Shown: piece after piece, positions 32,698-36,411 of the stretch
Layout of the letters: each line of letters begins with the position of its first letter
Position numbering within the stretch: the stretch's first letter is position 1
Assembly (NCBI GenBank): GCA_026707285.1
Contig: JAPOXD010000019.1
Location: 1 to 64,000, forward strand
From: Chloroflexota bacterium
GTDB taxonomy: Bacteria; Chloroflexota; UBA11872
DNA length: 64,000 nt
Reading direction: 5' to 3'
Position numbers and translations under genes: made by a program
The notes under the pieces: generated by a model
Database searches by the model: none
Told to the model about the DNA's origin: nothing
Seen by the model: the letters and a program-made list of their open reading frames with translations, nothing else

Positions 32698-32754
32698 CCG
32701 CAGGATCGGCCGCTTGGCGCGCCCGGTCCCACGGCTCGAAGGAAAACGCTGCGC

Positions 32755-35238
32755 TTGGTTGACACGGGCCAGGCAAGCCTGAGAGGCGGCACACCCCGCC
32801 ACGATAGCCCCCGAATCCAGGTTGCCCGCGCGCCGACGGCTCAAGCCGCTCTCGGGGACCTCTACGTCGTGGTGCAAGGCGGCACGGACCGCCAGGGACG
32901 TGCCTTTGTCAGCGCCGCGACTACCACCTACTACGCGGCCGAGTCCGATGACATCGCGGCGGCGTTGGTCAGCGGCATGCGACAAGCGTCCTACAGCGTC
33001 ACCGTGTCGGCCGATCCGGGCGAGGCGGAGGCGATCGTCGGCGCCACGGGGGCCGTCATCGCCGACGGCATCGTCTACATCGCCCAAGTCTTGCCCACGC
33101 AGGTCTTTTTCCTGCGCAACGGCACGATCAATGCCCTTCCGAACGAGTCCGATCTCGAATCCGGCTACCAATCCAGTCTTGACGTCGAGCAAGAAATCGA
33201 CCTGTTTCGCGCGCAGCTTCAGGACGGTGACTGCCTGGTCTTGGCGTCGACGGACCTTCGTCATGAACTCACGGAACGTGAAATCCGCGGCATGCTGCGC
33301 CGGCGCTCGGCCCAGGAAGCGGCGTACGACATGTGCGCGCTCATCGCCCAGCGCGGCGGGCAACAGTGCGAAGTCCTGGTCGTGCAATTCGCGGACGTCT
33401 CGGCCCGCAGAGTCCCAACGGATGACAGGCATCCGCCCGCAGCCACGGACACGACATCCATCGGTTCCTTGGACGACGGAGACCCGGAGCTCGCCTACCA
33501 GGGCGAGTCGGTGAGCCAGTCGCACCCCGCCAGCCTGCAGTCGCCGCGGCAAGCGGACCCGCGTCTCGGGAGGCGCGTTCAAACCGGTGGGGCCTACGCC
33601 GCCGAGACCCGGTCCGACCTTTCTCGAAATCGGGCAGCGCCGGCGCCAAGCAAGTCATTGGCACAGCGGATCATCTCGCTGCCCGTTACGCTGATCACGC
33701 TCGTTGTTGTGCTGCCGATGGTGGTGGTGCGTGCGCTCGTGGATCTCGTTACCGGCAGAGGTCGCAACCGGCGCGTTCGGCCACAAGCCACCGCGCCCGA
33801 GCCGCCGACCGACCGGCTCGACGACGACTGGGACAGCCTGCGTGACCTTCGGGCCGCAGGTCCCGGCGACCAGCGGTCCCCGGTCGATGCGGCGCCGCCC
33901 GCGCGCCCGCTCGAATATGTAGGCGCCGATTTGCAGGGACACCGTGATCCGCTGCTGGTCCGCCGTCGGCGCTCGTTCCCCGGGCCGGGCACCCTCCTCT
34001 TCGGCTTGTCGCTGGCGTTGCTCGTGGTGATGGCGGTAGTGCTGATCCTGCGAAACTCGCCGGCACCGGCCGAGACCGAACTCATCGAAACCCCCACGCC
34101 CGACGGTCCGTCGCTCACTGCGACCGCCGCCCCGGGCAACTTCGAACCCGTTGAGTCAAGCTCGCGCGCCACGGAGTTGCTCACCCAGGCCGAGGATCTG
34201 TTCCGCGAGGCGCAAGACCGCGGGCCCGAGGAGGGCCGCGCCGCCACACTGCTGATGCTGCGCGACGCCGAGGACCTGGCGAATCAGGCGCTATCGGCAG
34301 ACACCGCCCGGCTGCTCGCGCAGGACATCAACCGTCTCCTCGACGACATCACGCGTGAGGAAGAACGCATCAACCGCGTCTACAAAATCGTCCCAAGCTC
34401 AACCATCGACGAGTTCGATAGCGCAGGCATCGGCAGCGCGGTGGAAGCCCTTGATGTTCGACTGGACTCGAAGTATGTGATCGATGCTATTTCGGATCAG
34501 CTGTTGTCCTATGAGACCGCGCGCCAAGGCGTGTCGCTGCTGAGGAAGGGCGACGTCGTCGGTTCGGTGACGGTTCAGGATTTGATCGCCGTCATCGACC
34601 GATCGTTGAGTCCGATCGTCATCGACAATCGATACAACATCTTCAGCATCGATGAGAGCGATACGGCGCGCCTGCTGCGCATCACTGGAACCGAGGAGTG
34701 GCGGACCCCCGTGGCGTTCGACAACTTCAACAACAATCTCTACGTGCTCGATCCAGGGGCGAACACGATCTTCAAATACCAATGGACCGCCGGCGGCTAC
34801 GAGTTGGGGCCAACGAGCTATTTGGACGCTCGGGATGAGATTGACCTCTCAACGGCCATTGATTTCGCAATCGACGGCGACATCTATGTCCTGTTCGAGG
34901 ACGGATCGATCCTGAGATTCCGCGGCGGCTCCCAGATCGGCTTCACCATCGCTGGGCTCGAGGGCGACGCGCTGCGAGCGTCCCGGATTTTCACCGACGC
35001 CGAGTCGGAGAGCCTCTTCCTGGCCGACGTTTCCAACAAGCGCATCGTCGAAATCGACAAGCGCGAGGGAACCGCGGGAGCCTTCGTGCGCCAATTCAAA
35101 TACGCCGGCTCGGATGACTTCTTCGCCGATATTCGCGGGCTCTGGGTCAGTGAAATCGACGGGCGCATGATCGTGCTGGGCAAGGACAGGCTGCGTCAGT
35201 TCGTCCTGCCGCGACTCGCCGACGGCACAGGCGCCTAG
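32755..35238 (+). CDS. Membrane protein with PP2C-like pseudophosphatase domain and C-terminal propeller
   Basis: An 827-residue protein of unknown function. TTG 32755 has AAGGA about 11 bases upstream. Residues 33-203 follow the PPM/PP2C fold pattern, but each metal-binding position is changed: VVVQGGTDRQG for the DGMGG motif, QVLPTQVFFLRNG for GDSR, LASTDLRHEL for SDGL and RGGQQCEVLVVQF for DN. It should be catalytically dead. A hydrophobic stretch is at 307-332 and a stronger transmembrane helix at 413-434. A charged helical segment (about 465-560) leads to repeated blade-like strands (about 610-827), including NNLYVLDPGANTIFKY and SLFLADVSNKRIVEID. It may pass a binding signal across the membrane. 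Confidence 0.75.
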   Translation: MVDTGQASLRGGTPRHDSPRIQVARAPTAQAALGDLYVVVQGGTDRQGRAFVSAATTTYYAAESDDIAAALVSGMRQASYSVTVSADPGEAEAIVGATGAVIADGIVYIAQVLPTQVFFLRNGTINALPNESDLESGYQSSLDVEQEIDLFRAQLQDGDCLVLASTDLRHELTEREIRGMLRRRSAQEAAYDMCALIAQRGGQQCEVLVVQFADVSARRVPTDDRHPPAATDTTSIGSLDDGDPELAYQGESVSQSHPASLQSPRQADPRLGRRVQTGGAYAAETRSDLSRNRAAPAPSKSLAQRIISLPVTLITLVVVLPMVVVRALVDLVTGRGRNRRVRPQATAPEPPTDRLDDDWDSLRDLRAAGPGDQRSPVDAAPPARPLEYVGADLQGHRDPLLVRRRRSFPGPGTLLFGLSLALLVVMAVVLILRNSPAPAETELIETPTPDGPSLTATAAPGNFEPVESSSRATELLTQAEDLFREAQDRGPEEGRAATLLMLRDAEDLANQALSADTARLLAQDINRLLDDITREEERINRVYKIVPSSTIDEFDSAGIGSAVEALDVRLDSKYVIDAISDQLLSYETARQGVSLLRKGDVVGSVTVQDLIAVIDRSLSPIVIDNRYNIFSIDESDTARLLRITGTEEWRTPVAFDNFNNNLYVLDPGANTIFKYQWTAGGYELGPTSYLDARDEIDLSTAIDFAIDGDIYVLFEDGSILRFRGGSQIGFTIAGLEGDALRASRIFTDAESESLFLADVSNKRIVEIDKREGTAGAFVRQFKYAGSDDFFADIRGLWVSEIDGRMIVLGKDRLRQFVLPRLADGTGA

Positions 35239-35261
35239 ACGCGCCGCTGAGCTGACAGTGG

Positions 35262-35332
35262 AGCGGGGAACGGGAATCGAACCCGCGTTTTGGGCTTGGG
35301 AAGCCCACGTTGGGCCACTCAACTATCCCCGC
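35262..35332 (-). tRNA. tRNA-Gly, anticodon CCC
   Basis: The minus strand folds as a complete 71-base cloverleaf. The acceptor GCGGGGA pairs with TCCCCGC, and the D arm is GTTG/CAAC. The anticodon stem TGGGC/GCCCA holds the loop TTCCCAA. The variable loop has four bases and the T arm is GCGGG-TTCGATT-CCCGT. The discriminator is T and CCA is not encoded. It reads GGG codons. The ORF that starts at 35290 on the plus strand runs through this gene and is not a valid start for MoxR. Confidence 0.95.
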
Positions 35333-35463: not shown

Positions 35464-36411
35464 ATGGATGACATCGGCACAGTTGCGCAGCGCGTCTCCG
35501 ATAGTGTCAATCAGGTCATTGTCGGCAAGCGCGACGCTGTCGAACTCACCGTCGTCGCCCTGCTGAGCAACGGTCACATCCTGATCGAGGATGTGCCGGG
35601 AGTCGGGAAAACGACGCTAGCCAAGGCCATGGCGCAGTCGCTGGGCCTTTCGTTCAGCCGCGTGCAGTTCACGCCGGACATGCTGCCGAGCGACGTGACC
35701 GGCGTGACGATCTACAACCAGAAGTCGCAGGAGTTCGAGTTCCGCGCCGGCCCGGTGATGTCGCAGATTCTGCTGGCGGATGAGGTGAATCGCGCCACGC
35801 CGAAAACGCAATCGTCGCTGCTGGAGGCCATGGAGGAGCGCCAGATTACCGTGGACGGCGTGACTCACACCCTGCCCAGCCCGTTCCTGGTCATGGCCAC
35901 GCAAAACCCCATCGAGTACGAGGGCACCTTTCCGCTGCCGGAGGCCCAGCTCGACCGCTTCTTTCTGCGCGTGAATTTGGGCTACCCGGATCGATCGGAC
36001 GAGGTTGAAGTCCTCGGCGCCCAGCAGCACACCCACCCGCTGACCGCCGTGCGGCAAGTGGCCGACGTCGACACGATCCTGGCGGCGCAAGCGGCGGTGC
36101 GGGAGGTCTACATCGACCAACTCGTGCACGAATACATCGTCGATCTCGTGCGGGCCACCCGCGACCATGGCGAGGTCTACCTGGGAGCCAGTCCGCGAGG
36201 CAGCCTGTTTCTCTACCGCGGCAGCCAGGCGCTGGCGGCGATGCGCGGCCGGGACTACGTGATTCCCGACGACGTGAAGAACCTGGCCGTGGCGGTGCTG
36301 TCCCACCGGGTGATCGTGAGCCCGGCCGCCCGCATCCGCAGCGTCGACACTCGCGACGTAGTGCGGGAGGTGCTGGATACACTGCCAGTCCCGGGAGCCA
36401 GCGCCGCCTGA
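35464..36411 (+). CDS. MoxR-family AAA+ ATPase
   Basis: Chaperone-like ATPase that usually helps mature or activate a partner with a von Willebrand A or DUF58 domain. ATG 35464 gives 315 residues; GTG 35449 is another possible start. The longer ORF start lies inside a tRNA gene. Core motifs are [20 protein letters not shown] (Walker A), [20 protein letters not shown] (Walker B and sensor region), [20 protein letters not shown] and [16 protein letters not shown]. No DUF58 or vWA gene follows, which is unusual; the next gene is ogt, four bases later. Its target must be encoded elsewhere. Confidence 0.92.

Follow-up and report, generated by a model that had tools for sequence, protein, structure and literature searches.

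A transmembrane protein of Chloroflexota and Patescibacteria with a PPM phosphatase fold, a degenerate metal site and an NHL-type propeller

The 64,000-nucleotide stretch of Chloroflexota DNA analysed here (the window) codes for an 827-aa protein in which a PP2C-like (PPM) domain deprived of its metal-binding Asp residues is joined, through a membrane helix, to a six-bladed NHL-type propeller, and there is good support both for this structure and for the missing metal site. The open reading frame at 32755-35238 on the forward strand starts with TTG and has an AGGA 11 nt upstream (Table 1). It is a real gene, with dN/dS well below 1 and single-copy, full-length orthologues of 81-96% identity in all five congeneric genomes, whose alignments to the protein run from residue 1 or 2 through the C-terminal end. 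The closest named loci belong to Chloroflexota bins, with 91 and 81% identity. No family of Pfam or NCBIfam matched the whole protein above its curated cut-off, the curated-family matches of its relatives were limited to the NHL repeat model of Pfam (down to E 2.8e-5), and no description of the family was found in the open-access literature.

Single-sequence searches of Pfam, NCBIfam and the PDB were nearly blind to this protein, and its PPM and NHL domains were revealed by family profiles only. The protein alone had no match in Pfam, and in NCBIfam its residues 145-203 matched Stp1_PP2C at E 0.0003, far below the cut-off. A profile of the N-terminal domain made from 55 sequences (A3), used with hmmsearch, matched tPphA (2j82, E 2.6e-16), PstP (1txo, E 4.1e-10), Stp1 (E 5.8e-6) and TAP38 (E 0.0005), with a weaker match to the SpoIIE-type 3rnr (E 0.004), SpoIIE being more distant from it than the Stp1/PstP/tPphA branch; the pseudophosphatase TAB1 was matched faintly (2pop, E 0.88). 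The AlphaFold2 model of the domain has a pLDDT of 92 and a pTM of 0.90, Foldseek aligned it to 2j86 (E 7.8e-13, probability 1.00), and among the 50 PDB matches listed all 50 were PP2C/PPM or SpoIIE-type proteins. By fold and by sequence homology, the domain belongs to the PPM (PP2C) superfamily. The sequence-only reading had placed a PPM fold at residues 33-203; profile search and structure prediction both returned that fold, with no non-PPM fold seen, but the boundaries had to be moved to about 2-214.

As is established for the PPM family, the metal ligands of tPphA are D34, D119, D193 and D231. In the profile alignment these positions correspond to Q41, P114, T166 and Q203 of the 827-aa protein, in agreement with the earlier observation that Asp had been replaced in all four metal motifs. 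The register at D231 is uncertain by one residue, with Q204 in its place if the last strand is shifted, which is immaterial for this protein because Q204 is not an Asp either. The loss is also conserved in orthologues, a point that the sequence-only reading had left for comparison: among 104 non-redundant relatives (53 from Chloroflexota and 51 from Patescibacteria), 86 keep none of the four Asp residues, 18 keep one and 0 keep two or more, and active orthologues with the catalytic Asp set were not found. Of the 94 relatives with a residue at the D34 position, 76 have Glu or Gln (Glu in 58/104), and the D119 position is occupied by Pro in 48/53 Chloroflexota and by Asp, that is the GD of the GDSR motif, in 7/51 Patescibacteria. 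Asp is present at the D193 position in 2/104 relatives and at the D231 position in 0/104, and therefore a normal binuclear centre is impossible; one residue past D231, Asp is found in 27/53 Chloroflexota. Patescibacterial examples in which this GD survives without the binuclear site are L146:2085-4031, L150:2040-4082 and L177:1423-3231, and two class-level relatives (L032:4033-6345 and L038:4074-6149) carry CSD at the D193 motif, the nearest to an intact motif that was seen. The protein does not have the Asp ligands of the active PPM/PP2C enzymes (D34, D193 and D231, with D119 for the third metal), and from its sequence the N-terminal domain should be inactive as a phosphatase. Since the fold is PPM and its degenerate metal site is shared by the orthologues, the family falls among the PPM pseudophosphatases of the TAB1/PHLPP kind.

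Comparison within the genus (Nei-Gojobori) gave dN/dS values of 0.09-0.16 for the pseudo-PPM domain, 0.29-0.54 for the linker and 0.01-0.07 for the propeller, which is the most conserved part of the protein. These low values, together with intact reading frames, ruled out gene decay. P114 and Q41, at the former D119 and D34 positions, rank 7th and 8th in conservation among 222 columns, and the conservation of these columns under purifying selection points to re-use, rather than decay, of the dead PPM domain. The former catalytic pocket thus seems to have been re-used.

A strong transmembrane (TM) helix ahead of the neck is present in nearly all members, and Lys and Arg are commoner on its N-terminal than on its C-terminal side in 113 of 138. 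Because of this excess, the PPM domain of the 827-aa protein is predicted to be cytoplasmic and the propeller extracytoplasmic. The transmembrane region noticed in the first reading was confirmed, with its main helix at about 412-434, and a second hydrophobic stretch, at 301-335, was added to it; a further hydrophobic stretch of the linker is shared by about a third of the other members. If residues 301-335 were a true second TM helix the N-terminal domain would be outside, a location that is unlikely because this domain is without a signal peptide.

The C-terminal family profile (A4) covers residues 467-827, and the model of this region, with a pLDDT of 93, consists of three helices followed by 24 strands that make up six blades. 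The propeller model matched the structure of Brat-NHL (4zlr, E 4.6e-11), and the propeller profile matched the designed NHL 'Pizza' propellers, Drosophila Thin and PknD, the NHL domain of which (1rwi, E 4.7e-14) is the top natural bacterial match. The domain is therefore a six-bladed NHL-type beta-propeller. A propeller had been recognised earlier at residues 610-827, and it is its start that did not hold, since the 24 strands of the six blades begin at about 542, some 70 residues before. Anaerolineales UBA2181 has a relative (L124:5071-7116) in which the propeller follows an N-terminal membrane anchor and the PPM domain is absent.

Table 1. Features of the 827-aa gene and its surroundings in the window
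Feature	Position	Strand	Basis or remark
AGGA, likely ribosome-binding site	32740..32743	+	11 nt before TTG; sequence reading
Whole gene, 827 aa: pseudo-PPM / linker / TM / helical neck / NHL propeller	32755..35238	+	ORF and orthologue alignments
Pseudo-PPM (PP2C fold) domain, residues ~2-214	32758..33396	+	family profile, AlphaFold2, Foldseek
Q41, tPphA D34 position (metal ligand)	32875..32877	+	profile alignment
P114, tPphA D119 position (third-metal ligand)	33094..33096	+	profile alignment
T166, tPphA D193 position (binuclear-centre ligand)	33250..33252	+	profile alignment
Q203-Q204, tPphA D231-N232 position, register ±1	33361..33366	+	profile alignment
Low-conservation linker, residues 215-408	33397..33978	+	dN/dS 0.29-0.54
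Extra hydrophobic stretch, residues 301-335; candidate re-entrant, monotopic or second TM	33655..33759	+	hydrophobicity
Main TM helix, residues ~412-434, preceded by RRRR	33988..34056	+	N-terminus predicted inside by positive-inside rule
Three-helix neck, residues ~468-539	34156..34371	+	predicted model
Six-bladed NHL-type beta-propeller, residues ~542-820	34378..35214	+	profile, predicted model, structure match
tRNA-Gly (CCC) between the 827-aa gene and the MoxR gene	35259..35332	-	context; sole tRNA in the 64-kb window
MoxR-type AAA ATPase	35464..36411 (ORF from 35290, probable start close to 35464)	+	neighbour kept within the order only

Relatives of the 827-aa protein are widespread in two phyla. 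A single-sequence search found them in 168 of 301 Chloroflexota genomes, and the propeller profile matched 102 of 151 genomes of this phylum (90 at E < 1e-15). For Patescibacteria, a single Peribacteria query had matches in 140/192 genomes and the profile in 78/96 (73 at E < 1e-15). The family is kept in genomes of about 0.6-1.5 Mb. When 84,980 species genomes were searched with two peptide patterns, both drawn from the window's own order and thus liable to miss other phyla, 74 loci were found, all in Chloroflexota, Thermomicrobiales or Patescibacteria, plus L109, a bacterial locus with a Peregrinibacteria-like neighbourhood. The N-domain was matched in 39 of 40 patescibacterial ORFs inspected (not in L180, and weakly in L175, E 0.03), and the TM helix was found in 39 of the same 40 (not in L182). 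One genome (G014) has on its contig C12 a second, divergent copy (L036:4806-6851) with 29% identity to the 827-aa protein; this copy resembles the versions found in a different family of the class, and would have come by transfer or from a contaminating contig.

In the propeller tree, the rows from Patescibacteria are on one side of a branch with values of 94/87, which is not starred. Previous work has placed Patescibacteria as a derived sister group of Chloroflexota (PMC12329446), which makes shared inheritance a natural, if unproven, reading of this distribution. We tentatively suggest, at somewhat less than even chances, that a core envelope protein had acquired an inactive PPM domain by the time Chloroflexota and Patescibacteria (CPR) split, and that the family is a shared derived trait of these two sister groups. 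Its transmembrane function would be conserved, possibly essential and independent of kinases, and few uncharacterised membrane proteins of the genome-reduced CPR bacteria would be as widespread. Most protein families enriched in CPR have been described as lacking annotation, and many of them as membrane proteins (PMC6744442), and the 827-aa family may be present, unlabelled, among them.

The neighbours of the gene vary by lineage and are mostly unrelated housekeeping genes, and therefore no pathway is named by the context. In the window's order, the genes that lie divergently upstream are infC and aspS, as recognised from sequence, and downstream are the tRNA-Gly gene and then the MoxR gene. 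In Anaerolineae, guaA is found upstream and either tsaD or the gene of a LytR-CpsA-Psr protein downstream, while neighbours in Patescibacteria include YidC, L10/L12, argS and RNase J with prepilin peptidase and SmpB; obg is also among the neighbour genes across lineages. In seven patescibacterial loci (L146-L148 and L150-L153) a YidC-type insertase gene and a ~115-aa ORF lie in divergent orientation to the gene, and rplJ-rplL are nearby in about ten other loci of Patescibacteria. Such varied housekeeping surroundings suggest that the gene belongs to the core set and not to an accessory island. A general operon with MoxR was considered and rejected, since the pairing is restricted to the order and a tRNA intervenes. 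A MoxR-vWA-beta-propeller ternary system was rejected too, on the same two observations and because the neighbour is an AAA_3 MoxR (2.1e-65), not a bpMoxR (6.6e-10).

The bacterial PP2Cs tPphA, PstP and Stp1 are like the N-terminal half of the 827-aa protein in fold, strand-helix order, profile and top Foldseek matches, but the family, unlike them, has lost the set of metal-ligand Asp residues and is fused to a TM helix and a propeller. Dead PPM domains have been described in TAB1 and PHLPP2, pseudophosphatases with divergent metal sites that hold one metal ion each (PMC12002173). Both are eukaryotic and without the TM-propeller half, and TAB1 works with a kinase, whereas in many carriers of the 827-aa family none was detected. 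The layout of the protein is that of PknD from Mycobacterium tuberculosis, which has a TM and NHL sensor half (PMC1262709), with a cytoplasmic signalling-type domain, one TM helix and an extracellular six-bladed NHL propeller. However, the N-terminal place is taken by a kinase in PknD and by a dead phosphatase here, and with a PPM fold instead of the kinase domain the protein is not a PknD-like receptor kinase. A six-bladed NHL propeller is also common to Brat, TRIM71 and Thin, but these are eukaryotic RNA or protein binders with low identity to the 827-aa protein and no context in common with it. The 827-aa protein thus resembles PknD in layout and TAB1/PHLPP2 in its dead PPM domain and belongs to neither, and no bacterial PPM pseudophosphatase like it was found in the open-access literature.

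It was first suggested from the sequence that the protein could be a sensor in which a dead phosphatase binds a partner. We too find a partner-binding sensor or scaffold plausible; the topology, the ligand, the partner and any signalling we infer. In our preferred reading, to which we give about an even chance, the 827-aa protein spans the membrane as an ancient scaffold or receptor of the envelope; its propeller outside the cell would bind a ligand, and its dead PPM domain would dock a cytoplasmic partner that is not a kinase. The propeller would bind a surface, cell-wall or protein ligand, the neck and TM helix would transmit this binding or simply serve as an anchor, and the PPM domain may dock its partner through the former active-site positions, with E/Q at D34 and P at D119. 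The partner could be a housekeeping envelope protein from the cell-wall, secretion or division machinery, which is likelier than a Ser/Thr kinase because many carriers are without a detectable Hanks-type kinase. In some lineages the neighbours (LytR-CpsA-Psr, YidC-type insertase) are related to the envelope.

In a TAB1-like adaptor, the propeller would supply the input, and the dead PPM domain would either bind and regulate a Ser/Thr kinase of the Hanks type or protect phosphosites against an active phosphatase. This reading is favoured by the precedents of TAB1 and PHLPP2 (PMC12002173), by the faint match of the family profile to TAB1 and by the sensor half shared with PknD (PMC1262709). Such a kinase is also available in the window's own genus, where every genome has one or two PF00069 matches; the window genome (G000) has one, at C54:49479-50195 in a 1046-aa frame. 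However, most carriers outside this genus keep the gene without a Ser/Thr kinase in the same organism, as judged by one Pfam model (PF00069) in incomplete MAGs: none was detected in 12 of the 13 genus-g2 genomes of the window's family (the exception being G012), in any of the 5 f2 genomes of its order or in 31 of 40 patescibacterial carriers, with a match in the other 9. No protein kinase gene was seen adjoining a gene of the 827-aa type, and a Stp1-type PP2C (PF13672) was not found in 15 of 20 carriers tested, the window genome included. A general adaptor role is weakened because so many carriers have no detectable PF00069, and we consider it unlikely. Slightly better chances, though still poor ones, are given to a pure structural anchor, with the pseudo-PPM domain as an inert cytoplasmic plug or oligomeriser and the propeller acting alone as a platform for envelope assembly or adhesion. 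The much higher conservation of the propeller and the existence of a membrane-anchored variant without the PPM domain (L124) agree with it, but the N-terminal domain is kept in 39 of 40 sampled Patescibacteria and its former active-site columns are among its best conserved.

Altered activity, through residual chemistry or the binding of a single metal by substituted ligands, could be served by the frequent Glu at the D34 position and the Asp just past D231 in Chloroflexota, and PHLPP2 and TAB1 do hold one metal ion each (PMC12002173). The four sites of the 827-aa protein are nevertheless Q, P, T and Q, and the near absence of Asp at D193 and its absence at D231 do not allow a normal binuclear centre, so that we find this explanation quite improbable. 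The least probable, with hardly any chance in our view, is a partner-switching role, in which STAS or kinase partners would be contested between the dead domain and phosphatases of the SpoIIE/RsbU type. Of 22 genomes from the window's order, 20 do have SpoIIE-type proteins (PF07228), but PF07228 was not found in two carriers of the same order (G021 and G022), and the family profile is nearer to Stp1/PstP/tPphA (2.6e-16) than to SpoIIE (3rnr, E 0.004).

The 827-aa family is not a one-off, since all the relatives seen, from two phyla, have a dead PPM domain. It retains a phosphatase fold where no Hanks-kinase signalling is apparent, provides CPR bacteria with a core envelope function that can be tested, and is a possible marker of the relationship between CPR and Chloroflexota.
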